Assembly: GCF_914271545.1 (NCBI RefSeq)
Contig: NZ_CAJZAH010000001.1
Location: 1,054,001-1,118,000, forward strand
Source: Cupriavidus respiraculi
GTDB lineage: Bacteria > Pseudomonadota > Gammaproteobacteria > Burkholderiales > Burkholderiaceae
Reading direction: 5' to 3'
DNA length: 64,000 nucleotides
Shown: positions 1 to 59,121 of the stretch, in pieces
Position numbering within the stretch: the stretch's first letter is position 1
How the letters are laid out: each line of letters opens with the position of its first letter
Position numbers and translations under genes: made by a program
The notes under the pieces: generated by a model
The model's input: only the letters and a program-made list of their open reading frames with translations
Database searches by the model: none
What the model was told of the DNA's origin: nothing

Positions 1-211
1 TCCGTGGCATACGGCCGGAAAACGCACTGATGCTCGCCAGGCAACGGCGTTCCCGGTTCACTTTTATCACATCAATTAATTTGAATAAGTAATCCGACAA
101 ACGCGCTGCATCCGCCTCTTTCCCTGCCCTATAGTTCAGTCATCGGCGCGACACACAGCAAGCGACGAACCGACGAATAACTTCAACAACTTAGCGATAG
201 AGAGAGAAATC

Positions 212-820
212 ATGACCAACAGCGCCCTCACCAAGTTCCTGCCCGCCCTGACCCTTGCCCTGCTCGCCGCCGGCGGCGTGCAGGCAGCGCCCACCAGCGG
301 CTCGGCAGATTCCTACGGCTATCAGTTCCGCAGCGCCCCCGGCCCCGTGCGCGACGTCTATACCGACGGCGCCCGCATCGGCAATGTGGATGTGTTCACC
401 GAAGGCGCCCGTACGGTGGCCAGCCTCCGCGACGCCTTCACGGACGGCGCCCGCAGCCGCGATGCCTTCACCGACGGCGCCCGCAGCGGGGACGTCGATG
501 TGTTCACCGAAGGCGCGCGCATCGTCGCCGGCCTGGACCGCACCGGCGTGTCGTCGGTCCCGGGCCGCACCCGCGACGCCTACACGGATGGCGCGCGTGG
601 CCGCGATGCCTTCACCGACGGTGCCCGCAGCGGCGATGTCGATGTCTTCACCGAGGGCGCGCGCATCGTCGCCGGCCTGGACCGCACCGGCGTGTCCTCC
701 GCCCCGGGCCGCACCCGCGACGTCTACACGGATGGCGCGCGTGGCCGCAACGCCTACACCGATGGCGCCCGCAGCGGGGACGTCGATGTGTTCACGGAAG
801 GCGCGCGCGTGACGGTGTAA
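212..820 (+). CDS. Exported TDGAR-repeat protein, function unknown
   Basis: I do not recognise a described function. The 202-residue product begins with a typical Sec signal peptide (hydrophobic core about residues 8-24, likely cleavage after VQA). The mature part is almost entirely copies of an eight-residue motif, [DN]-[AV]-[YF]-T-[DE]-G-A-R. I count eleven, in two flavours: DxYTDGAR/DxFTDGAR and DVFTEGAR. Two 48-residue units, each containing a GLDRTGVSS linker, are nearly identical apart from a V/A change and a few D/N and F/Y swaps. There are no cysteines in the mature part and no recognisable domain, so this is probably a periplasmic or secreted low-complexity protein. The ATG follows an AGAGAG stretch. 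The 211 bases before it hold no gene that I can see. It stands alone, upstream of a signalling block on the same strand. Confidence 0.8.
   Translation: MTNSALTKFLPALTLALLAAGGVQAAPTSGSADSYGYQFRSAPGPVRDVYTDGARIGNVDVFTEGARTVASLRDAFTDGARSRDAFTDGARSGDVDVFTEGARIVAGLDRTGVSSVPGRTRDAYTDGARGRDAFTDGARSGDVDVFTEGARIVAGLDRTGVSSAPGRTRDVYTDGARGRNAYTDGARSGDVDVFTEGARVTV
494..817 (+). repeat. 144-bp tandem repeat inside the TDGAR gene
   Basis: The DNA repeats with a 144-base period: the GTCGATGTxTTCACC segment recurs at 494, 638 and 782. There are two full units and a final partial one. The period is a multiple of three, so the reading frame is kept, and copy number could vary by slippage without frameshift. 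A shorter related unit begins near 386. Confidence 0.85.
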
Positions 821-980: not shown

Positions 981-1667
981 TTGAACACTTCCGCCCGTCC
1001 CGCCCCGGACCCCGCCTCGAGCCCCATCGTCTATGTAGTGGATGACGACCCCGCGATGACCACCGCCCTGTGCGGACTGCTGCGGTCCGTGGACATCGGC
1101 GCCGAGCCCTTCCACACCTCGCAGGACTTCCTGGCCTACCCCCGCCCCGACGCGCCGAGCTGCCTGGTGCTGGACGTGCGGCTGCGCGGCGGAAGCGGGC
1201 TGGCCTTGCAGGACCAGCTCAACGCGATGCACGATCCGCTCCCCGTCGTCTTTATCACCGGCCATGGCGATATCCCCATGACGGTGCGCGTGATGAAGGC
1301 CGGCGCCGTGGACTTCCTGACCAAACCCTTCACCGATCACGATTTTCTCGATGCGGTCGGCGCATCGCTGGAGCGCGATCGCGAACGCCGCGCGCAGCGG
1401 CGGTCGGCGGACGACCTCGCCGCCCGCTATCTCGCGCTGAGCGCCCGCGAGCGCGAAGTCATGCAGCATGCGGCCTCGGGGCTGATGAACAAGCAGATCG
1501 CCGACAGGCTCGGCATCAGCGAGGTCACGGTCAAGATCCATCGCGGCAATGCCATGCGCAAGATGCAGGCACGCACCTTCGCCGACCTGGTGATCATGGC
1601 GCACGAGGTGGCCGGCACGGTGCCCCCGCAGCCGCAACCGACGGGCGATGAGCGGCGAGCCGCGTGA
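981..1667 (+). CDS. FixJ-type two-component response regulator
   Basis: This is a 228-residue regulator with an N-terminal receiver domain (VDDDP acidic pocket, phosphoacceptor Asp in LVLDVRLRG near residue 65, FITGHGDIPMTV and the FLTKPF lysine). It ends in a LuxR-type helix-turn-helix (LSAREREVMQHAASG...NKQIADRLGISEVTVKIHR) near residues 155-225. I chose the TTG at 981 because AAGGAG lies six bases before it. An upstream ATG at 858 would add 41 arginine-rich residues with no domain and no good ribosome-binding site. The 3' end overlaps the following histidine kinase gene by 20 bases, so the two are almost certainly co-transcribed partners. The signal and target genes are not known from the sequence. 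Confidence 0.85.
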   Translation: MNTSARPAPDPASSPIVYVVDDDPAMTTALCGLLRSVDIGAEPFHTSQDFLAYPRPDAPSCLVLDVRLRGGSGLALQDQLNAMHDPLPVVFITGHGDIPMTVRVMKAGAVDFLTKPFTDHDFLDAVGASLERDRERRAQRRSADDLAARYLALSAREREVMQHAASGLMNKQIADRLGISEVTVKIHRGNAMRKMQARTFADLVIMAHEVAGTVPPQPQPTGDERRAA

Positions 1668-3174
1668 CGGGCGCGGCGGGCACGGCGGCATGCCGGCCAT
1701 GATGCCGCCGCCATGGGCCTGGCAGTTCAGCGCCGCCGCCGGCACGGCGGCGGCCATCTTCTACGTGGACACGCGACCGGGCATCGACTACGCCATCGCC
1801 GTGCTGTACGTGGTGGTCGTCATGCTGGTGCAGCCGCTGCTGCATGCGCGCGGCATCCTGCATGTGGCGCTGCTCTGCATGGCGTTGACGGTGCTGGCCC
1901 TGCCCGTCTCGGCGCGCGGCGAACCCCACGCCAACTCGATCGCGCGCTGTACCGTGAGCCTGGCCGCCATCGCCATTGCCGGTCTGCTGGCTTACCGCAA
2001 CCGCATGGCATTCGACCGCATTCGCGGCCAGGAGGCCGAACTGCGTCGCGTGGCGGCACTGCTCGCGGGCTCGCAGGCGCTCAGCGCAACCGGCAGCATC
2101 GGCCTGGACCCCGGCCGGCACAGCGTGGTTTGGTCGGAACAGGCCGCCCGCATCTTCGGGATCGACTTCGCGCAGCAACCCACCATCGAAGCGCTGTTCG
2201 AGCGGGTGCACCCCGACGACCACGCCGCCGTCCACGCCGAACTGGAAAAAGCACGGCGCGGCGCGGCTCGCCTCGAGATGGAGCACCGTATCGTCACGCC
2301 GGACGGGCAGACCCGCTTCGTGCGCTACGTCGCGCATCGCGTCGATGCCAGCGGCGACGCCCCGGAATACCTCGGCGCGCTGATCGACGAAACGGCAACG
2401 CGGCAGCAGAACGATGCGCTGCATGCGCTGCAGAACAAGCTCGCCCATGTGGCACGCGTGACCACGCTCGGGGAAATGGCGGCTTCGCTGGCGCACGAGC
2501 TGCGCCAGCCCCTGGCCGCCATCACGCTCGACGCAGCCACCGCCGCACGCTGGCTGGGGCGCGCGCCGCCCAACGTGCAGGAGGCCGTGGCGGCGCTCAC
2601 GCGCGTCGGCGCGGAGGCGCAGCGCGCGGACCAGGTGATCCGCGGACTGCGGGCGATGGTGGAGCCCAATGGCCAGAGCGGAACGCGGTTCTCGCTGGCG
2701 GAGGCCACCAGGGAAATCCTGCCGCTGCTGCGGTGCGAACAGGAACGCAGCGGCGCGCGCATCGAACTGGCCATGCCATCGTCGCTGCCCGAGGTACTGG
2801 GCGATCGTGTGCAGATCCAGCAGGTGCTGATGAACCTGGCGCTCAACGGCCTGCAAGCCATCGCCCCGGGCGGCAACGGTAACGCCGCCGCGGCCAGCGT
2901 GGTCAGGATCTCCGCGGAAGAGGCGGTGGACGGCCGGATCGTCGTCGGCGTGGCCGACAACGGGGCGGGCATCGCACCGGAATGGCAGGCGCGGATCTTC
3001 GAGCCGTTCGTCAGCGACAAGTGCAACGGCATGGGAATGGGCCTGTCGATCTCGCGCTCGATCGTCGAGCGCCATGGCGGCTTGCTGATGGTCTCGTCGG
3101 CGCCGGGAAGAACGGAGTTTTCGTTCACCCTGGCCACCGCCGGCGGCCCGGCGGCGACGCGACTTCAGGCGTGA
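1648..3174 (+). CDS. Membrane PAS-domain sensor histidine kinase
   Basis: This 508-residue kinase should phosphorylate the FixJ-type regulator encoded just upstream (20-base overlap). Residues about 25-115 contain several hydrophobic segments (probably three or four membrane helices). A PAS/PAC region follows at about 145-255 (VWSEQAARIFGI, VHPDDHAAV, EMEHRIVTPDG). The dimerisation box SLAHELRQPLAAI carries the phospho-His near residue 281. The ATPase part has the N-box NLALNGLQAI, the G1 box VADNGAGIAP and the G2 box GMGMGLSISRSIVERHGG. The HELRQPL type of H-box is common in kinases of the FixL/DctB-like HK4 group. The stop codon overlaps the end of the opposite-strand regulator gene by ten bases. 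Confidence 0.88.
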   Translation: MSGEPRDGRGGHGGMPAMMPPPWAWQFSAAAGTAAAIFYVDTRPGIDYAIAVLYVVVVMLVQPLLHARGILHVALLCMALTVLALPVSARGEPHANSIARCTVSLAAIAIAGLLAYRNRMAFDRIRGQEAELRRVAALLAGSQALSATGSIGLDPGRHSVVWSEQAARIFGIDFAQQPTIEALFERVHPDDHAAVHAELEKARRGAARLEMEHRIVTPDGQTRFVRYVAHRVDASGDAPEYLGALIDETATRQQNDALHALQNKLAHVARVTTLGEMAASLAHELRQPLAAITLDAATAARWLGRAPPNVQEAVAALTRVGAEAQRADQVIRGLRAMVEPNGQSGTRFSLAEATREILPLLRCEQERSGARIELAMPSSLPEVLGDRVQIQQVLMNLALNGLQAIAPGGNGNAAAASVVRISAEEAVDGRIVVGVADNGAGIAPEWQARIFEPFVSDKCNGMGMGLSISRSIVERHGGLLMVSSAPGRTEFSFTLATAGGPAATRLQA

Positions 3175-3884
3175 GGATCGGGATGGCGAGCCGCCGGCGC
3201 GGGCGGATCGGTTGCGCGTGCCCCGGCTTCGGCCGGCACGAGCAGCCCGAGGGCCTGCGCCAGCAGTACCAGATCGGCAAAGGTGCGCGCCTGCATCTTG
3301 CGCATGACCTGTCCGCGATGGATCTTGACGGTGGCCTCGCTGAGCCCCACGGTGCCGGCAATCTGCTTGTTCAGCAAGCCCGAGGCGGCCAGCGTCATTA
3401 CCTGCCGCTCGCGCGGCGACATTGCCTCGAAGCGCGCGCGCAGCGCCAGCGCCTGTTGCGCCTGCGCCCGGCGCTCGCGCTCCCGTGCCAGCGCGGCGAA
3501 CACGGCATCGAGCAGTTCGCTTTCGCGAAATGGCTTGGCGATGAAATCGATTGCGCCGGCCTTCATGGCGGTGGCGGTCATCCGCACATCGGCATGGCCG
3601 GAGATGAAAACGATGGAGAATGGCTGCTCGGACTGGGGCAGGCGAGCCTGGAGATCGAGGCCGCTGGCGCCGCGCAGGCGGACATCCAGCACCAGGCACG
3701 TCGGCGCGTCGACCCGGGCGGCGGCCAACATTTCCTCGGCGGAGGCGAAGGCGCGCGCGGCCAGGCCGACGGAGCGCAGCAGGCTGACGAGCGCGTCGCG
3801 CACGGCGGCGTCGTCGTCCACCACGAGCACCATCCCATCCTGCGTGGCCTCGCCACCTTGCGAACTTGCTGAGATGCTGGTCAA
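3165..3884 (-). CDS. Second FixJ-type response regulator, divergent from a lone receiver gene
   Basis: The product (239 residues from a TTG at 3884) has a receiver domain (VVDDDAAVRDAL, CLVLDVRLRG, FISGHADVRMT, IAKPF). It ends in a LuxR-type helix-turn-helix (MSPRERQVMTLAASG, NKQIAGTVGLSEATVKIHR). It resembles the regulator encoded at 981-1667 along its whole length, suggesting duplication. The start is uncertain: the TTG has no clear ribosome-binding site. An in-frame ATG at 3833, preceded by AGGATGGG, would place VLVVDDD right at the N-terminus, as is usual in the family. The gene converges on the PAS histidine kinase and lies divergent from the receiver-only gene, so it may answer to the same kinases. 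Confidence 0.83.
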   Translation of the reverse strand: MTSISASSQGGEATQDGMVLVVDDDAAVRDALVSLLRSVGLAARAFASAEEMLAAARVDAPTCLVLDVRLRGASGLDLQARLPQSEQPFSIVFISGHADVRMTATAMKAGAIDFIAKPFRESELLDAVFAALARERERRAQAQQALALRARFEAMSPRERQVMTLAASGLLNKQIAGTVGLSEATVKIHRGQVMRKMQARTFADLVLLAQALGLLVPAEAGARATDPPAPAARHPDPHA

Positions 3885-4022
3885 GAGAGAATCCGAAGGC
3901 CCAAATGCGTTTCACCGGCCGTCCGCCCCTGGCGGCGGACGACGCGCCGAATATAGCAGACCACATTGCGCATGCGTGCGGCATGACGGCGACGCAACGG
4001 CCGGCCCGGCGGTTTCCCCGCC

Positions 4023-4035
4023 AATACCACAGTAT
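4023..4035. promoter_or_regulatory. AATACCnnnGTA element in the divergent regulator spacer
   Basis: AATACCACAGTAT lies between the two divergently transcribed regulator genes. It resembles AATACCTTGGTAG at 852-864, upstream of the first FixJ-type gene. A shared binding site is possible, but with only two copies it could be chance. Confidence 0.3.
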
Positions 4036-4127
4036 GATTCCGCCCTTGCCCCCGTGCGGTTATTCTTGCCGTCAAGCGATGCGGGCCCAGCCGGCTCCGG
4101 TCATCGCTACCACCACCAGGAACGCTT

Positions 4128-4502
4128 GTGAACGCCGCTCCAGTCATTGCGGTCGTCGACGACGATGCTTCGGTCCGCCAGGCGCTGGGCAGTCTGCTGC
4201 GCTCCCTCGACATGCACGTGGCCCTGTACGAAAGCGGCTCGCAGGTGCTGAGCGCCGTCGATACGCAGGCCATGTCCTGCGTCGTGACGGATATCCAGAT
4301 GCCCGGGATGAACGGGCTGTCCCTGTGTGCCGCGCTGCGCGAACGCGGCCTGCGCATGCCCGTCATCTTCATGACGGCCTTTCCCGAGGAGCGCTACCGC
4401 CAGCAGGCGGCGGACCTTGGGGCCTTCTGCTTCCTGAGCAAGCCGTTCGTGGAAGCCGACATCATCCGCTGCATCGAGGCGGCGCTGGAACCGGAGGCAT
4501 AG
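4128..4502 (+). CDS. Single-domain response regulator (receiver only)
   Basis: This 124-residue protein consists of a receiver domain alone: VVDDDASVRQAL acidic pocket, VVTDIQMPGMNG with the phosphoacceptor Asp near residue 53, FMTAFPE with the switch Thr, and FLSKPF with the conserved Lys. There is no output domain, so it probably acts as a phosphate shuttle or by protein contact. I took the GTG at 4128, which follows CCAGGAA at a suitable distance. It lies 51 bases upstream of the giant kinase/histidine kinase gene on the same strand, making that protein the most likely phosphodonor. This pairing is inferred from position. Confidence 0.85.
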   Translation: MNAAPVIAVVDDDASVRQALGSLLRSLDMHVALYESGSQVLSAVDTQAMSCVVTDIQMPGMNGLSLCAALRERGLRMPVIFMTAFPEERYRQQAADLGAFCFLSKPFVEADIIRCIEAALEPEA

Positions 4503-4553
4503 TCCCGCCCGTGCGGCACACCGCTACACTGCTGCCTGTCCATCCCCCAGGCA

Positions 4554-7500
4554 ATGCGCATCATGGCAACCTCGAGCCGTAGTCCAACCGTATCCGAGCC
4601 GCCGTTCGACGAGGCATGGCTGGCCCGGTGCGCGCATGTCCTGCTTTGCAGCGAGGACGGCATCGCCGCCCATCGACTCGAAGACCCGGCCACCGGCAAG
4701 CGCTGGCGCACGCTCAGCGCGCCGTGGGAACCGGACGCCGGATGCCGCCGGCTCGAGCATGAAATGCGCCTCGCCCCGTTGCTCGATGCCGCCTGGGCCG
4801 TGGTGGCGCTCGCCGCCATCCGCGCCTCCGACCGCCTGTTCCTGGTCTTCGGGCACGAGGAGGCGCCCACGCTGGCGCAGGCCCTCACGGCCGAGCCTCC
4901 GTCCGTTGGCGCCTTCTTCGATTTGGCGATCGGCGCTGCACGCGCCGTTGCGGCGGCCCACGCGCAAGGGGTGGTCCACAACGATATCCGGCCGGCCAAT
5001 CTGCTGGTCGACGCCTCCTTCCACGTGCGGCTGAAGGGCTTCGGCCATGCCAGCGCCGCGGGCAGGCCGCAACCCGCATACCCTCCGCGCGATTTCGCCA
5101 TGCCTTATATGGCGCCCGAAGTCGTACGGCAGAATCCTGCCGCCGCCACGGTGCACAGCGATCTCTACGCGCTCGGCGTCACGCTGTACCAGGCGCTGAC
5201 CGGCACCCTGCCCCTGCGCGCGGACTCGGCCGCCGGATGGCGGCATGCCCATGTCGCCGTGGAGCCGGTGCCCCCGTCCGCGCGCCGGCCGGATGTGCCC
5301 GAGATGCTGAGCCAGCTCGTGCTCAAGCTGCTGGCCAAGGATCCCGGCGGCCGATATGGAAGTGCGGCCGCCTTGCTCGCCGACCTGCTGCGCAGCCGCG
5401 CGCAGTGGCAGGCCGAGGGACGCATCGCCCCGTTCGCACTCGGCGTGGCAGGATCCCTGCCGGCGCTGGCGTTGTCCGGCCGCCTGTTCGGCAGGGCGGC
5501 CGAAATGGAACAAATGGACGAAGCGCTGACGAACGTGGCACGCAGCGGCAAGCCCGGAATCGTGCTGCTGGGCGGCGCCGCGGGCGCGGGCAAGTCGTCG
5601 CTGGCGGACCACCTGTGCCGCCTCGCCGCCAGCCGGGGCGCGCGTTTTGCCGTGGGCAAGAGCGATCAGTTGCAGCGCGACATCCCGTACGCGCCGTTGG
5701 CCCGGGCGCTGCGCGCCCTGACCATGGCGGCGCTGGGCGAGGATGGCGACTCGCTGGCGCGTGTGCGGGAGCGCCTGCTGCGCGGGCTCGAGGGCCAGGG
5801 CCGCGCCATCGCCGAGATCGTGCCGGAGATCGAGCACGTGATCGGGGCGACCCCCCCGTTGAGCAGCGTGCCGGCGCAGCAGGCGCGCACGCGCGTTCAC
5901 AGTGCGATCCTGCATGCGTGCGCGGCGTTCGCCGAGCGCGGCCGTCCACTGGTGCTGTTTCTCGATGACCTCCAGTGGGCCGACGAATCCACGATGTCGC
6001 TGCTCGAGGCGTTCGCCGTGCGGCCGCCGGAAAACGTGCTGCTGACGTTGGCCTACCGCGATCACGACCGGGTGTTCACGCAGTCGATCGGCTGGCTGCG
6101 CCACGCGGACCGTGCTGGCGCCCTGCGCCTGACCCGCATCGCCGCCGGCCCCCTGCCCCCCGAGGACCTTGCGCAATGGGTTGGCACGGCGCTGGGCGCC
6201 GGCACCGGGCAGATCGATGGGCTGGTACGCGTGCTGCACGAGAAGACCGCGGGCAACCCGTTTTTCGCCCACCAGCTGCTGCGCACGCTGGTGGACGACG
6301 GCGCGCTGCGCTACGACGGCGAACAGGGACGGTGGCTGTGGAACGAGGCCGATCTCGCCCGGCGGCAGTACTCCGACAATGTGGTCGACCTGATGCTGTG
6401 GCGCCTGGAGCGCCTGCCGGCCGCCGGCCGCGACATGCTCCGGCATCTCGCCTGCATCGGCCTGCGCTGCGACGACGTCCTGCTGGCTCGCGTCGCCGGC
6501 ACGACCGAGGAGCGGGTCAGGGAGCAGCTGGAGCCTTGCGTGGAAGCCGGGCTGCTCGCGCGCGAGTCCGCGGGCTATGCCTTCGCCCACGACCGCGTGC
6601 TCGAAGCCGCCTACGCCCTGACCGCGGCCGGGGACAGGCCCAGCGCCCACGCGCGTATCGCCAATCTGATGATCGCCTCCTGGCGCGACGACCTGGCCGA
6701 CCATGCCTTCGAGATCGCGAACCAGATCGAGCGCGCCGCGCGGCATGAACTGTCCGTGCAGGAGCGCGTGGCATTCGTCCGCGCCCTGACCATGGCGGGG
6801 CGGCGCGCGCGGAACGCCGCCGCACTCGCGCAGGCGACCAGCTATGTCGCGGCCGCCGCCGAGCTGATGGACGCGTCATGGTGGTCGTCGCATTACGCGC
6901 TTGCCTACGATGCGAGCCTGTTGCGCTGCGAATGCCTGCTGGCCCAGGCCGATCTGGCCGGCGCGGCGCGGGAGATCGACGCCCTGCTCACCCGCCGGAT
7001 GCCGGCGCTGGACCACGCGGCCGTGTACCGGCTCAAGGCGACCCTGCGCACGCTGCACTCGGACTACGAAGGCGCCATCGAGGCCGCCCAGACCGGCCTG
7101 GCGCTGCTGGACGTGCCGCTGCGGCGCGCGCCATCGCCGGCGCAAATGCGCGAGGCCCGCGATGCCGTCACGCGCGCATTGGACGGCCGGCCCATCGCGG
7201 CATTCGGGCAGCTGCCGGCAACGGCGGACCGTCGCATCGAAACCGCGATGGGTCTGCTTTCCACGCTGATCTCCTCCGTATTCGTCAAGGACGGCATCAG
7301 CTTCCTCCATCTGGCCAAGATGGTGGAACTGAGCCTGCGGCACGGTTGCACGCCGGAATCCGCCTATGGGCTGTCGTGGTATGGCGTGTACCTGGCGGCG
7401 CTGTATGGCGAGTACGAGGAAGGGCTGGACTGTGGCCTGGCGGCGCTGGCGCTGATCGACCGCCACGGCTACGAAGCGCAGCGCATCGCCACGCTGGTGG

Positions 7501-9785
7501 CGCTGGACCAGGTCAGCCCGTGGACGCGGCCGCTGCCCTATGCGTTGGCGCATGCCCAGCAGGCGGTGGCGCGCGGGATGGCTTCCGGCGACCTCGGCAT
7601 GGCGAGCTACGCCAGCAACCACATCGTCTCGGACCTGCTCGTGATGGGCGAGCAGCTCAGGCTGGTGGAAGACGAAATCGCGCGCGGGCTCGCGCTGATG
7701 CGCGTGATCCGGTACGAGGATATCCATCTGATCCTCGATGCCCAGCACCGTCTGGTGCGACACCTGCGCCATGGGAGCCCCATCGCGCCGGCGGGCGACG
7801 CGAACGGTACCGCGCGTCCCGATGCGGCCGAGGGCGCCCGGCGCAGCAATTCGGAGCCCACCCGCTTCTGGATCTGGCTCTACGACGGCATGACCGCCGT
7901 CTTCCTCAATGACCCGGAACGCGCCGTCGCGAGCCTGGAGCGCGCCGCCGATCTGATGTGGGCCGCCATCTCGCACATCAACACCGCGGATTGCCGCCTC
8001 TATCTGGCCCTGGCCACGGCGCACTCGCCGCGCGCGGCGGGACAGAACCGGGAAGCGATCGACGCGCTGGTCTCCCATCGCGACCGCTTCGCGCACTGGG
8101 CCACCCTGAACGGCTTCACCTTCCAGAGCAAGCTGCTGCTGATCGACGCCGAGATCGCACGCCTGCGCGGCGACCCGCTGCAGGCGCTGCGGGACTACGA
8201 AGCGTCGGCGAACGCGGCCGGGGTCGCGGGCTTCGTCCACGAGCAGGCGCTGGCGCACGAGTACGCTGGCCAGTTGTGCCTGGCCAGCGGCCTGCAGACG
8301 GCGGCGCGCGAGCACCTGCGCCACGCGCGCGCGTGCTACCGCCGCTGGGGCGCCGACTACAAGGCGGCGCTGTTCGATGCCGAGCACCCGTTCCTGGCCG
8401 ACCACCGCGCGCGGGAGGCGGCCGTGATCGTGCCCGGCGCGGGGCAGGCCGCGCTCGACTGGGAAACCGGCGTGAAGGCCGCCCAGGCGCTGACCCAGGA
8501 AGTCGTGCTGGAGCGGCTGATCGAAACGTTGATGACGAACATGGTCGTCCATGCCGGGGCGCAGTACGGCGTGCTGGCGATGATGCGCGCCGGCGCGCCG
8601 GTCATCGAGGCGTGCGCGCGCGTCGAGGGCGGCAAGGTGGCGGTGACGCTGGGCCCGACGGCGGCCACGGCGGACGCGATTCCCTCGGCGGTCCTGAACA
8701 GCGTGCTGCGGACCAAGGAGCGCCTCGTGCTCGACGATGCCATGGTGGACGCGCCGTCGCTGCATGCCAGCGGCGCACTGGGACGACCCCTGCGTTCCGT
8801 GTTGTGCCAGCCGCTGATCCGAGGCGGGACGCTGATCGGCGTGTTCTATCTCGAGAACAACCTGGCGCCGGGCGTGTTCGATGCCACACGTACCACGGTG
8901 TTGCAGGTGCTCGCACCGCAGGCCGCGATTTCGCTGGAGACGGCGCGGCTCTACGCGCAGCTGATCGACGAGAACAATCGCCGCGCCGAGGCCGAAGCCG
9001 GACTGCGCAGCGCCCGCTCGGAGCTGGTGCGCAGCTCACACCTGACCGTCATGGGCGGACTGGCCGCCTCGATCGCGCACGAGATCAACCAGCCGCTGAC
9101 GGCCATCGTCACATCGGTCGACGCCAGCCTGCGCTGGCTGAACCGGCCCGCGCCCGACGTCGCCGAAGCGATGGCCGGCCTCACGCATATCCGTGAGAAC
9201 GGACTGCGCGCCGCCGATATCGTCCGGGCGCTGCGCGCGCTGGCCAAGCAAGCGCCGGCCGTGCTGGCGCCGCTGGTCGTCGACGATGTCGTGCGCGACG
9301 TGCTCGCGCTCACGCGCATCGACATCGACGCGCGGCAGGTGCGGCTGCGCACCCAGCTCGATGCCCGCGCCGCCACGGTCGAGGCCGACCGCGTGCAGCT
9401 GCAGCAGGTGGTGCTGAACCTGGTCACCAACGCGCTCGACGCCATGGCCTCGGTGCCGGAAAGTTCGCGGGAGCTGCTGGTGACCTCCGTGGTGGAGCAC
9501 GATCACGTCGTCGTTCGCGTGCACGACCAGGGGACCGGCATCGATCCAGACACGCTGGCTCATATCTTCGACCCCTTCTTCACCACCAAGGCAGAAGGCA
9601 TGGGCATGGGCCTGGCCATCTGCCGCTCCATCATGGAAGCGCATGGCGGCACGCTCGATGCGCGGACGCGCCCCGGCGGCGGCAGCGTGTTCGTGTTCCG
9701 GTTGCGCGTGCGGCAACCGGAACGCCGCTCCGCCAAGCCGGAGGAGAGCGGTCGCCACGGCCCGGAATCCGGCGCAGACACTTAA
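4554..9785 (+). CDS. Giant protein kinase-like / ATPase / GAF / histidine kinase sensor
   Basis: The 1743-residue protein has four blocks. Residues about 20-280 form a Ser/Thr-kinase-like fold with HNDIRPANLL (catalytic loop near 140) and YMAPE (near 185). The DFG aspartate is replaced: the motif reads LKGFGHA near 158-164, and I cannot find a clear VAIK lysine, so this part is probably a pseudokinase. Residues 320-560 hold an AAA/STAND-type ATPase (Walker A GAAGAGKSS near 341-349, Walker B VLFLDDLQWADE near 467-478). A long helical region, presumably TPR-like, spans 650-1300. A GAF domain lies at about 1315-1470. The C-terminus is a histidine kinase (SIAHEINQPLTAI near 1505, NLVTNALDAM, GMGMGLAICRSIMEAHGG). 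The architecture matches the known trifunctional Ser/Thr kinase-ATPase-histidine kinase family. An alternative ATG at 4563 would shorten it by three residues. Confidence 0.87.
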   Translation: MRIMATSSRSPTVSEPPFDEAWLARCAHVLLCSEDGIAAHRLEDPATGKRWRTLSAPWEPDAGCRRLEHEMRLAPLLDAAWAVVALAAIRASDRLFLVFGHEEAPTLAQALTAEPPSVGAFFDLAIGAARAVAAAHAQGVVHNDIRPANLLVDASFHVRLKGFGHASAAGRPQPAYPPRDFAMPYMAPEVVRQNPAAATVHSDLYALGVTLYQALTGTLPLRADSAAGWRHAHVAVEPVPPSARRPDVPEMLSQLVLKLLAKDPGGRYGSAAALLADLLRSRAQWQAEGRIAPFALGVAGSLPALALSGRLFGRAAEMEQMDEALTNVARSGKPGIVLLGGAAGAGKSSLADHLCRLAASRGARFAVGKSDQLQRDIPYAPLARALRALTMAALGEDGDSLARVRERLLRGLEGQGRAIAEIVPEIEHVIGATPPLSSVPAQQARTRVHSAILHACAAFAERGRPLVLFLDDLQWADESTMSLLEAFAVRPPENVLLTLAYRDHDRVFTQSIGWLRHADRAGALRLTRIAAGPLPPEDLAQWVGTALGAGTGQIDGLVRVLHEKTAGNPFFAHQLLRTLVDDGALRYDGEQGRWLWNEADLARRQYSDNVVDLMLWRLERLPAAGRDMLRHLACIGLRCDDVLLARVAGTTEERVREQLEPCVEAGLLARESAGYAFAHDRVLEAAYALTAAGDRPSAHARIANLMIASWRDDLADHAFEIANQIERAARHELSVQERVAFVRALTMAGRRARNAAALAQATSYVAAAAELMDASWWSSHYALAYDASLLRCECLLAQADLAGAAREIDALLTRRMPALDHAAVYRLKATLRTLHSDYEGAIEAAQTGLALLDVPLRRAPSPAQMREARDAVTRALDGRPIAAFGQLPATADRRIETAMGLLSTLISSVFVKDGISFLHLAKMVELSLRHGCTPESAYGLSWYGVYLAALYGEYEEGLDCGLAALALIDRHGYEAQRIATLVALDQVSPWTRPLPYALAHAQQAVARGMASGDLGMASYASNHIVSDLLVMGEQLRLVEDEIARGLALMRVIRYEDIHLILDAQHRLVRHLRHGSPIAPAGDANGTARPDAAEGARRSNSEPTRFWIWLYDGMTAVFLNDPERAVASLERAADLMWAAISHINTADCRLYLALATAHSPRAAGQNREAIDALVSHRDRFAHWATLNGFTFQSKLLLIDAEIARLRGDPLQALRDYEASANAAGVAGFVHEQALAHEYAGQLCLASGLQTAAREHLRHARACYRRWGADYKAALFDAEHPFLADHRAREAAVIVPGAGQAALDWETGVKAAQALTQEVVLERLIETLMTNMVVHAGAQYGVLAMMRAGAPVIEACARVEGGKVAVTLGPTAATADAIPSAVLNSVLRTKERLVLDDAMVDAPSLHASGALGRPLRSVLCQPLIRGGTLIGVFYLENNLAPGVFDATRTTVLQVLAPQAAISLETARLYAQLIDENNRRAEAEAGLRSARSELVRSSHLTVMGGLAASIAHEINQPLTAIVTSVDASLRWLNRPAPDVAEAMAGLTHIRENGLRAADIVRALRALAKQAPAVLAPLVVDDVVRDVLALTRIDIDARQVRLRTQLDARAATVEADRVQLQQVVLNLVTNALDAMASVPESSRELLVTSVVEHDHVVVRVHDQGTGIDPDTLAHIFDPFFTTKAEGMGMGLAICRSIMEAHGGTLDARTRPGGGSVFVFRLRVRQPERRSAKPEESGRHGPESGADT

Positions 9786-56372: not shown

Positions 56373-58243
56373 CAGGCCACCACCACTTCGCGGAACATGC
56401 CCGCGTCCATATGCAGCATCAGGTGGCAGTGCCAGGCCCAGCGGCCCGGCGCGTCGGCGGTCACCAGAAAGGTGACGCGCTGGGCCGGCTGAACGCCGAA
56501 GGTATGCCGGCGCGCGAGAAATTCGCCGTCCGGCGTCTCCAGCTCGCTCCACATGCCGTGCAGGTGCATGGGGTGGGTCATCATCGTGTCGTTGTGCAGG
56601 ATCACCCGCAGGCGTTCGCCATGGCGGAAATGGACCGGCGTCGACTTGCCGAATTCCACGCCGTCCATCGACCAGGTGTAGCGTTCCATGTTGCCCGTAA
56701 GGTGAAGTTCGACTTCACGGCCCGGACCGCGCGGGTCCATGGGGCCGCCGATGGTGTGCATGTCGGCCAGCGTAAGGACGCGGCGGCCGTTGTCGCGCAG
56801 GCCGACACCGGGGTCGTCGAGATTGGTGCGGGCCATGTCCACGCGCATGTCGGTACTCGGTCCATATTCCGTGCGCGCATGGCGCGCGATCTTGCTGGGC
56901 ACCTTGAGCGGGCCGGGCGCCGCCATGCCATGGCCCGCGTGCTGGCCGTGGTCCATGCCGGCGTGCTGGGCGTGGTCCATGGCGGCGTGCTGGCTGTGGT
57001 CCATGCCGCCGTGACCGCCGTGGTCGCCGTGACCGCCGTGGTCGCCGTGAGCGCCATGGCCACCGTGCGTCCCCGCGCCCATCTCGCCCATCATGTCCGC
57101 CATCGACAGCCACTGCGGCTTGTCAAGCTCGGGCACCGCGGCCTGCAAGCCCGCGCGGGTCGCCAGCGTGCCGCGCGCATAGCCGCTGCGGTCCATCGCC
57201 TGCGAGAAGATGGTGTACGCCTCGTCCTGCGGCCGGACCAGGACATCGCAGGTTTCCCCGGGTCCGAAGCGGAATTCGTCCACCGTGACCGGCTCGATAT
57301 CCTGCCCGTCCACCTGCACGACCCTGAGCTTCAGGCCGGGAATGCGCACGTCGTAGAAGGTATTGCCGGCCCCGTTGATAAACCGCAGCCGCACCGTCTC
57401 GCCCCGGGCGAACAGGCCGGTCCAGTTGCCGGCCGGGGTCATGCCATTGGTGAGGTAGGTCAAGGTCACGCCCGACAGGTCTGCCAGATCGGTCGGACTC
57501 ATCCGCATCTGGTTCCACATCCTGCGTTTGTCCAGCGCCGACTTCAGCCCCTCCTGCGATATGTCGCGGAAGAAGTCGACCACCGTAGGCTGGTTGTAGT
57601 TGTAATAGTCGCTCTGTACCTTCAGCTTGGCCAGCACCCGCATCGGATCCTCGTCGGTCCAGTCCGACAGCAGCACCGTGTAGTCGCGGTCTGCGCGCAC
57701 GGGGTCCGCGCCGGCGGGATCGATGACGATGCCGCCGTAGACGCCGGTCATCTCCTGGAAGCCGGAATGCGAGTGGTACCAGTAGCTGCCGCTTTGCGCG
57801 ACCTTGAAGCGGTAGGTGAAGGTCTGCCCCGGCGCGATGCCAGGGAAGCTGATGCCCGGCACGCCGTCCATCTCGTACGGCAGGATGATGCCGTGCCAGT
57901 GGATCGAGGTCGGCTCGCGCAGACGGTTCGTCACCCGGATCGTGACCGTTTCACCCTCGCGCCAGCGCAGTGTCGGCCCCGGCAGCATGCCGTTGATGGT
58001 GGTGGCCATGGCGGGCCTGCCGGTGAAGTTGACCGGCGACTCGGCGATCACCAGGTCGAACTCCGTCCCGCGCAGCACCGGCGCCGTGCCGAAAGCGGTC
58101 TCGGGCGGCGCAGCGCCGGATTGCGACGCAGCACCGCCCGCCCAGCCCACGCCGGCCAGCACGCCGCCGGCGACCAGGCCCTGGACGAATCGCCGGCGTG
58201 GCAGGCTCGGCCATGACGGCCCGGACGGGAAATAGGATCGCAT
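56372..58243 (-). CDS. copA: Periplasmic multicopper oxidase CopA
   Basis: This 623-residue protein has a Tat signal (PRRRFVQGLVAGG). Three cupredoxin-type domains carry copper ligands in SIHWHGIILP, YWYHSHSGFQ, MMTHPMHLHGMW and WAWHCHLMLHMDAGM. It oxidises Cu(I) to Cu(II) in the periplasm. Before the last domain lies a His/Met-rich insert of about 48 residues (DNA about 56926-57069) with repeats HGGHG, HGDHGGHGD, MDHSQHAAMDHAQHAGMDH, probably a copper reservoir. It is first in the copAB operon and divergent from copRS, with a dyad in the spacer. Confidence 0.92.
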   Translation of the reverse strand: MRSYFPSGPSWPSLPRRRFVQGLVAGGVLAGVGWAGGAASQSGAAPPETAFGTAPVLRGTEFDLVIAESPVNFTGRPAMATTINGMLPGPTLRWREGETVTIRVTNRLREPTSIHWHGIILPYEMDGVPGISFPGIAPGQTFTYRFKVAQSGSYWYHSHSGFQEMTGVYGGIVIDPAGADPVRADRDYTVLLSDWTDEDPMRVLAKLKVQSDYYNYNQPTVVDFFRDISQEGLKSALDKRRMWNQMRMSPTDLADLSGVTLTYLTNGMTPAGNWTGLFARGETVRLRFINGAGNTFYDVRIPGLKLRVVQVDGQDIEPVTVDEFRFGPGETCDVLVRPQDEAYTIFSQAMDRSGYARGTLATRAGLQAAVPELDKPQWLSMADMMGEMGAGTHGGHGAHGDHGGHGDHGGHGGMDHSQHAAMDHAQHAGMDHGQHAGHGMAAPGPLKVPSKIARHARTEYGPSTDMRVDMARTNLDDPGVGLRDNGRRVLTLADMHTIGGPMDPRGPGREVELHLTGNMERYTWSMDGVEFGKSTPVHFRHGERLRVILHNDTMMTHPMHLHGMWSELETPDGEFLARRHTFGVQPAQRVTFLVTADAPGRWAWHCHLMLHMDAGMFREVVVA

Positions 58244-58434: not shown

Positions 58435-59121
58435 ATGAAACTGCTTGTCGTCGAGGACGAGGCCAAGACCGGCGAATACCTGCGCCAGGGCCTGACCGAA
58501 GCCGGCTTCGTCGTCGATCTGGCTCTCAACGGCCTGGACGGCGGCCATCTCGCGATGACGGAGCCCTATGACCTGCTGATCCTCGACGTGATGCTGCCCG
58601 ACGTCGATGGCTGGCGCATTCTCCAATCGCTGCGCGCGTCCCACAACGCCATGCCGGTGCTGTTCCTGACCGCGCGGGACAGCGTGGCCGACCGTGTCAA
58701 GGGCCTCGAACTCGGCGCGGACGACTACCTGGTCAAGCCCTTCGCCTTCTCCGAACTGCTTGCCAGGGTGCGCAGCCTGCTGCGGCGGGGCCATGCCCAG
58801 GTCGCTCTGGATCGGCTCGAGGTCGGCGACCTGGTGCTGGATCTCGCGCGCCGCCGTGCCACCCGCGCCGGGCGCCGCATCGCACTGACCGGCAAGGAGT
58901 TCTCGCTGCTCGAGCTGCTGGTGCGCCGCCGCGGGGAGGTACTGCCGCGCTCGCTGATCGCCTCGCAGGTGTGGGACATGAATTTCGACAGCGACACCAA
59001 CGTGATCGACGTTGCCATCCGCCGGCTGCGCGCCAAGATCGACGACGACTTCGACACCAAGCTGATCCAGACCGTGCGGGGCATGGGCTATGTCATCGAC
59101 GGTCCCGAGGACCCGGCCTGA
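58435..59121 (+). CDS. copR: Heavy-metal response regulator CopR/CusR
   Basis: This 228-residue OmpR/PhoB-type regulator has the receiver residues [25 protein letters not shown] (phosphoacceptor near residue 51), FLTARDS and DYLVKPF. A C-terminal winged helix follows ([35 protein letters not shown]). The N-terminus [15 protein letters not shown] is typical of CusR/CopR. It should activate copAB in response to periplasmic copper. The stop overlaps the kinase start by one base. Confidence 0.9.

Follow-up and report, generated by a model that had tools for sequence, protein, structure and literature searches.

Small stress-responsive proteins carrying the signature 'RDXXTDG', among them CzcJ, MmrQ and CopQ, have been described from Cupriavidus and Ralstonia, and MmsQ was reported to be metal-induced (PMC2864759; here and below, statements on published work refer to the parts of the papers available to us). 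C. metallidurans CH34 is credited with 19 such genes, whose products span 69-165 aa; ten of the 19 are metal-induced and three others are induced by hydrogen peroxide, the latter given there as a personal communication (PMC3384475). Elsewhere 21 copQ homologues are counted and described as still poorly characterised (PMC7563307). Two CopQ-like proteins, PrsQ1 and PrsQ2, are predicted to be small and periplasmic, and prsQ1 and prsQ2 deletion derivatives of NA4S lose enhanced silver resistance; RNA-seq of NA4S showed PrsQ2 to be strongly up-regulated and PrsQ1 not (PMC7380067). Since PrsQ1 is needed for silver resistance yet is not up-regulated, induction is no rule of the family. CopQ and CzcJ went undetected in a CH34 proteome, as did a number of further cop proteins (PMC11647595), although copQ and czcJ transcripts rise (PMC11647585, PMC11647595); tryptic peptides of octamer repeats would be very short, which bears on this absence. 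In the available portions of the literature searched, no fold, ligand or partner of the CopQ/CzcJ family is named.

Here we compare with these proteins the product of a gene (the window gene, encoding the window protein) at the start of a 64,000-nucleotide stretch of Cupriavidus respiraculi DNA, referred to as the window (contig NZ_CAJZAH010000001.1). Other family loci that were fetched are designated by L numbers.

Relationship to the CopQ/CzcJ family

The first-pass annotation of the window gene recognized no described domain in its product. This can no longer be maintained, because the published CopQ/CzcJ family (PMC2864759, in the parts available) aligns with the window protein: in single comparisons, BLASTP gave an E value of 3e-10 against CopQ and of 2e-15 against a CzcJ orthologue, the latter with a profile probability of 99.3%. 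By sequence comparison, the window gene is thus a new, unusually long member of a described family rather than the carrier of a new domain. Pfam returned no family for the window protein at E values up to 1, NCBIfam none above cut-off (the best score was 13.1 bits where 150 is required), and a literature search for a TDGAR repeat no relevant paper by title. The one hit among solved structures, an antibody light chain (E 0.05), was taken as chance.

Like the window protein, CopQ (WP_008652083.1, L145:4359-4595, on pMOL30 of C. metallidurans CH34; identified by motif and place) has regularly spaced RDxxTDG-type octamers after a signal peptide. It differs in having 78 aa and four octamers against 202 aa and eleven, in its location in a copper cluster (its gene adjoins a CzcE-family gene within the cop cluster of pMOL30), and in residue content: His follows the octamer GG or GA, a place that Arg takes in the window protein, and two of its spacers contain Met. 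Beyond the signal peptide, the window protein has neither His nor Met. CzcJ (L059:3506-3784, C. metallidurans BS1; named by gene order, between a porin and a CzcE-family gene) shares the signal peptide and octamers but has 92 aa, lies beside a czc cluster and lacks both the YGYxFR start and the GLDRTGVS spacer of the window protein. Octamers, GLDRTGVS spacers and a YGYxFR-like start are found in a 165-aa member on the CH34 chromid (L058:4908-5405; 46% identity over 82% of the query), which, unlike the window gene, adjoins an AcuR-like TetR gene and has an operator pair. This member is probably MmsQ or MmsQ1, to judge by its approximate place on the map and by the presence of two near-identical matches within a single genome. 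PrsQ1 and PrsQ2 of C. metallidurans NA4, compared by their published description in the parts available, are CopQ-like as is the window protein; PrsQ2 is under AgrR in NA4, and no AgrR consensus box was seen by eye in the window promoter. At 202 aa the window protein falls outside the 69-165 aa range, as do two paralogues of 223 aa in L062, a range that describes the CH34 members and does not define homology.

Repeat architecture and coding capacity

Translation from the ATG bears out the earlier description of an exported protein with eleven octamers (Table 1). The signal peptide, judged by eye, is of the Sec type, with a Lys-containing n-region, a hydrophobic core and a VQA/AP cleavage site, and is followed by a YGYQFR stretch ahead of the octamers. 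Exactly eleven octamers match [DN].[YF]T[DE]GAR, starting at residues 48, 60, 74, 84, 96, 122, 132, 144, 170, 180 and 192, and when the mature sequence from residue 27 onward was shuffled 10,000 times, no shuffle gave even a single match. Because the octamers account for 88 of 177 mature residues, or half, the first-pass statement that the protein is nearly all octamer was too strong, and the regular alternation of TDGAR and TEGAR types reported there gives way to a different order, D-E-D-D-E-D-D-E-D-D-E. The D-D-E triplet sits in a 48-residue module with spacings of 10, 12 and 26 (all spacings, in order: 12, 14, 10, 12, 26, 10, 12, 26, 10, 12), which comprises three octamers and the spacer IVAGLDRTGVSSxPGRT. 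This spacer is present twice, with one difference between the copies, and a GLDxx[GN]VS spacer was found in 20 of 66 family proteins. Exact RDxxTDG, a motif expected at least 3 times in a member of the family, occurs in six of the eleven octamers, and seven come directly after an Arg.

Table 1. Features of the window gene and its upstream region, in window positions
Feature	Position	Strand	Basis
CopQ/CzcJ-family repeat protein, 202 aa (stop included in coordinates)	212..820	+	translation, octamer pattern, BLASTP
Sec signal peptide, residues 1-25	212..286	+	VQA/AP site by eye
Tandem module 144 bp (48 codons), 2.7 copies	427..808	+	Tandem Repeats Finder
Octamer 1 DVYTDGAR	353..376	+	pattern match
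Octamer 2 DVFTEGAR	389..412	+	pattern match
Octamer 3 DAFTDGAR	431..454	+	pattern match
Octamer 4 DAFTDGAR	461..484	+	pattern match
Octamer 5 DVFTEGAR	497..520	+	pattern match
Spacer IVAGLDRTGVSSVPGRT	521..571	+	translation
Octamer 6 DAYTDGAR	575..598	+	pattern match
Octamer 7 DAFTDGAR	605..628	+	pattern match
Octamer 8 DVFTEGAR	641..664	+	pattern match
Spacer IVAGLDRTGVSSAPGRT	665..715	+	translation
Octamer 9 DVYTDGAR	719..742	+	pattern match
Octamer 10 NAYTDGAR	749..772	+	pattern match
Octamer 11 DVFTEGAR	785..808	+	pattern match
Upstream element ATCAATTAATTTGAA (TCAA-N5-TTGA), candidate activator site	71..85	+	conserved in 3 sequences; function inferred
CCCTATAGTTCAGTC, candidate -10 region, no good -35	127..141	+	conserved with L011, L012

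Variation among the eleven units in the T[DE]GAR codons is confined to the third position (summed minor fractions of 0.0, 0.0 and 1.82 at positions 1, 2 and 3), indicating that the amino-acid sequence of the 212-820 frame is what is kept. The repeat is protein-coding and the octamer is kept at the protein level, in agreement with the original interpretation. Two other ORFs over the repeat, of 278 aa on the minus strand and 185 aa on the plus strand, were rejected on the same grounds, since the varying positions are first codon positions in the former and second codon positions in the latter.

Distribution, orthologues and paralogues

A contig scan of bacterial and archaeal genomes yielded 49 loci among 126 pattern-matching stretches, all titled Cupriavidus or Ralstonia save one, 'Burkholderiaceae bacterium 16'. 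A plasmid search matched nine records, Cupriavidus each time; pMOL30, which carries copQ, was missing from these matches, indicating that short members were missed by this search. Within the genus, 60 of 60 genomes matched, with 6 to 37 matched stretches each (stretches rather than gene counts). The family sample gave matches in 75 of 398 genomes and 2 of 25 genera (Cupriavidus and one other), and the order sample in 3 of 399 genomes and 1 of 158 genera (Cupriavidus; the second genus of the family sample was not part of the order sample); both samples are even draws from larger groups, and very distant relatives could escape a search profile based on Cupriavidus members. Within the samples searched, the family is restricted to Cupriavidus and Ralstonia, with many paralogues per genome, so that the relatives found do lie in Burkholderiales, a point raised in the first-pass annotation, in two genera.

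The closest orthologues of the window gene are in L011 (C. gilardii J11; 124 aa, 6 octamer cores) and L012 (Cupriavidus sp. AU9028; 138 aa, 7 octamer cores). Both are intact, and the frame-shifted or poorly conserved homologues that the first-pass annotation had considered as a counter-indication were not encountered. In 13 fetched regions of the genome that contains the window, 13 family genes have at least two octamer cores; by this two-motif rule the L070 region had none, and three weaker places (C1:190 kb, C4:88 kb and C4:405 kb) are left out of the count. Two of the 13, at L062:5363-6034 and 7937-8608, are almost identical 223-aa genes that each have 13 octamer cores and are separated by about 1.9 kb; just one has a TetR gene directly downstream, and the pair represents a recent duplicate.

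Promoter region and genomic setting

The regions upstream of the window gene and of its orthologues in L011 and L012 keep two elements, ATCAAnnAAnTTGAA and CCCTATAGTT[CG]AGTC, at a fixed distance. The exact pattern of the second element was found in 3 of 60 genus genomes, once in each and always upstream of the window gene or its orthologue, and the combined two-element pattern has a single occurrence in the genome of the window. The first element (TCAA-N5-TTGA) lies some 65 bases ahead of the presumed start and resembles an activator site, a reading suggested by the presence of a TATAGT-like -10 with no good -35 and by a simple sigma-70 scan of the window promoter that returned no site.

None of the neighbours of the window gene recurs in the other fetched family loci, according to neighbour lists that rest on a crude gene finder, and the shared neighbours that the first-pass annotation had proposed to look for were thus not found. 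Downstream, at 981-9785, is a run of regulators that includes two FixJ-like response regulators, a PAS histidine kinase, a receiver-only protein and a 1743-aa ORF resembling, by eye, a protein-kinase/ATPase/histidine-kinase fusion. An operon of the window gene with the FixJ-like response regulator and kinase at 981-3174 is not supported, since the flanks are not common to the L011 and L012 loci while the promoter elements are; the sole DNA match outside the gene, between window 9386-9665 and L012:191-471 (69%), falls within the large kinase ORF. Between the window gene and the response regulator gene, a hairpin at about 843-875 has no T-run and is equalled or surpassed in folding by 12 of 200 shuffles, and we therefore claim no terminator there. 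Just upstream, L061:9381-10030 (ending at window position 30) contains a small two-gene unit that by eye resembles a VapBC-type toxin-antitoxin pair. Overlapping tandem repeats of 24, 18, 27 and 9 bases lie at window 56928-57067.

As markers of heavy-metal clusters we used TIGR01387 response regulators, TIGR01525 P-type ATPases and TIGR00914 RND pumps scoring above cut-offs, 18 in all. The nearest lies 57.6 kb from the window gene, at the far end of the window, where a response regulator above the TIGR01387 (heavy-metal) cut-off is encoded at 58441-59097. Genome-wide, 3 of the 13 family genes lie within 10 kb of a marker (5.1% of the genome; binomial P 0.026) and 2 of the 13 within 5 kb (P 0.061); because the markers were picked after some neighbours had been seen, this linkage to metal clusters is weak.

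A TetR-operator circuit on relatives of the window gene

A TetR-type gene is present in 19 of 69 loci (L009-L077, neighbour clustering). It is AcuR-like, the copy in L058 scoring 50 bits against a cut-off of 247. Two copies of the operator palindrome TATCTA-NN-AGTAGATA were found no more than 300 bases upstream of all 17 family genes followed by a same-strand TetR gene, and of only 1 of the 49 without one, the exception being the tandem duplicate in L062 (scan of 66 family genes with up to 2 mismatches; L074, L075 and L078-L106 lie outside this set). In the 29 genus loci L078-L106, a stricter operator pattern precedes 16 of 33 family ORFs. The genome of the window has five places that match the palindrome with up to one mismatch, each upstream of a family gene; these belong to three genes, of which L062 contains two and L063 one (TetR-operator loci L062:4522-6046 and 7937-8620, L063:5025-6439), all of the YGYxFR type. 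For the window gene, neither an adjacent TetR gene nor a TATCTA-NN-AGTAGATA site was found. Among the titles listed by a literature search, none links TetR to the family. Since MmsQ is reported to be metal-induced and the L058 member, probably MmsQ or MmsQ1, belongs to the TetR branch, a metal could conceivably be the signal for the TetR-linked branch.

Composition of the octamer and predicted structure

The pattern used to count octamers fixes positions 1, 4, 5, 6 and 7, so that the free observations are position 3, aromatic in 98% of 292 units from 66 proteins, and the final residue, which is R or K in 88% of them (R 78%, K 10%). Position 8 is Arg in all eleven octamers of the window protein and His in all nine counted octamers of CopQ, L071 and L072. 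Taken over five copper-locus members, His occupies this position in 9 of 14 octamers, against 7 of 321 elsewhere. The three His-bearing members are closely related, and L045 and L060, also copper-locus members, have no His at position 8; we therefore treat the pattern as a lead and attach no statistic to it. In L071:4984-5220, L072:4916-5152 and L145:4359-4595, where His replaces Arg, Met is found in some spacers. L071 and L072, from the genome of the window, lie near copper-type genes (P-type ATPase and CzcE-like clusters), and the product of L060:3701-4168, a gene that adjoins cueR and an RND efflux cluster, has ahead of its octamers an N-terminal stretch rich in Met and containing His and Cys.

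The mature window protein, counted from residue 23 or 27, contains no His, Cys, Met, Trp or Lys, and thus none of the three residues (His, Met, Cys) that would mark a soft-metal-binding protein; Cys, His, Met and Trp are all absent beyond residue 25 in 25 of 66 family proteins. SilE-type silver-binding proteins are likewise small periplasmic metal-stress proteins that are flexible without metal. SilE binds silver through His and Met, however, both of which are missing from the mature window protein. The window protein should therefore not itself chelate Cu, Ag or Hg, and such chelation should fit the His-bearing CopQ branch better.

AlphaFold2 gave no confident fold either for the window protein aligned with 23 relatives (mean pLDDT 50.9, pTM 0.15) or for the short paralogue L066 aligned with 21 (pLDDT 50.9, pTM 0.14), both below useful confidence. 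Such values can reflect a flexible chain or shallow alignments (24 and 22 sequences).

Possible functions of the window protein

We propose, with moderate confidence, that the window gene is a long CopQ/CzcJ-family member encoding a stress-induced, flexible, multivalent periplasmic chain that raises tolerance. An activator binding near -65 would turn the gene on when the cell meets metal or envelope stress, and the exported product would remain a flexible chain in the periplasm, where its eleven Asp/aromatic/Asp(Glu)/Arg units could act as many weak, identical sites. By holding envelope polyanions, a partner protein or hard divalent ions, these sites would increase tolerance. Given the lack of soft-metal ligands, copper or silver is less likely to be what the protein binds than envelope polymers, a partner protein or hard ions, and the octamers may have a partner-protein or envelope role; which partner is bound is a guess. 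The link to metal stress made in the first-pass annotation is upheld for relatives, which are so reported in print (PMC3384475, PMC7380067, in the parts available), and its suggestion of a metal site is weakened for the window member. Against the proposal stand the distance to the nearest heavy-metal marker together with the lack of a recurring neighbour gene, the non-detection of CopQ and CzcJ in a CH34 proteome (PMC11647595) and the failure of PrsQ1 to be up-regulated in NA4S (PMC7380067), the last two as given in the parts of those papers available.

It is also possible, although we put it forward only tentatively, that the family as a whole is an exported, largely unfolded scaffold with a tunable octamer end. 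His at this end would make the CopQ-type members of copper clusters metal-binding, and Arg or Lys would characterize a large unlinked branch, including the window gene, that binds no metals and instead coats or cross-links envelope polyanions or occupies a partner under stress. Part of the Arg branch would be repressed by its own AcuR-like TetR protein through the paired TATCTA-NN-AGTAGATA sites, and a repressor of this type would suggest that the signal is a small molecule (electrophile-like) and not a metal.

Alternatively, the window protein could be a direct periplasmic metal sponge, in which the acidic pair of each octamer, together with Tyr and backbone groups, binds metal and the number of repeats sets capacity. 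Metal induction of relatives (PMC3384475, PMC2864759, in the parts available), the position-8 His of CopQ, L071 and L072 and its enrichment over the five copper-locus members would agree with such a role, as would the two carboxylates present in ten of the eleven window octamers (octamer 10 starts with Asn). We nevertheless consider it unlikely, because the mature window protein has none of the residues His, Cys, Met, Trp and Lys and its 23 Arg nearly balance 27 Asp plus Glu, and because the octamers of the mutually close His-bearing members are not independent and L045 and L060 do without this His.

The retention of Arg or Lys at the octamer end in most units, the Arg directly before seven of the window octamers and the lack of a predicted fold could instead describe a precursor or sacrificial chain, cut in the periplasm by a protease at the terminal Arg, with the resulting octapeptide-like pieces serving as signals or keeping envelope proteases occupied. 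This is improbable, since spacer lengths vary, CopQ has His where the Arg would be cut, and no processing protease, transporter or receptor stood out in the neighbour lists. Finally, a fast-duplicating passenger kept by copy-number turnover, with no function of its own, would account for the different octamer numbers of orthologues (11, 6 and 7 in the window gene, L011 and L012) and paralogues and for the recent L062 pair, but is very improbable in light of an octamer core that varies at third codon positions alone, promoter elements conserved among three species-level genomes and a family kept in 60 of 60 genus genomes.

Implications

The window gene belongs to a lineage-specific family, present in every one of the 60 genus genomes, with 13 genes here and 19 to 21 in CH34 (PMC3384475, PMC7563307), two members of which are needed for evolved silver resistance (PMC7380067; all three papers in the parts available). 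Its relatives under the TetR-operator circuit give a route to an inducing signal. The window member separates the octamer from metal ligands. With eleven octamers and no soft-metal ligands, it should allow one to tell cleanly whether metal or another ligand is what the octamer binds.
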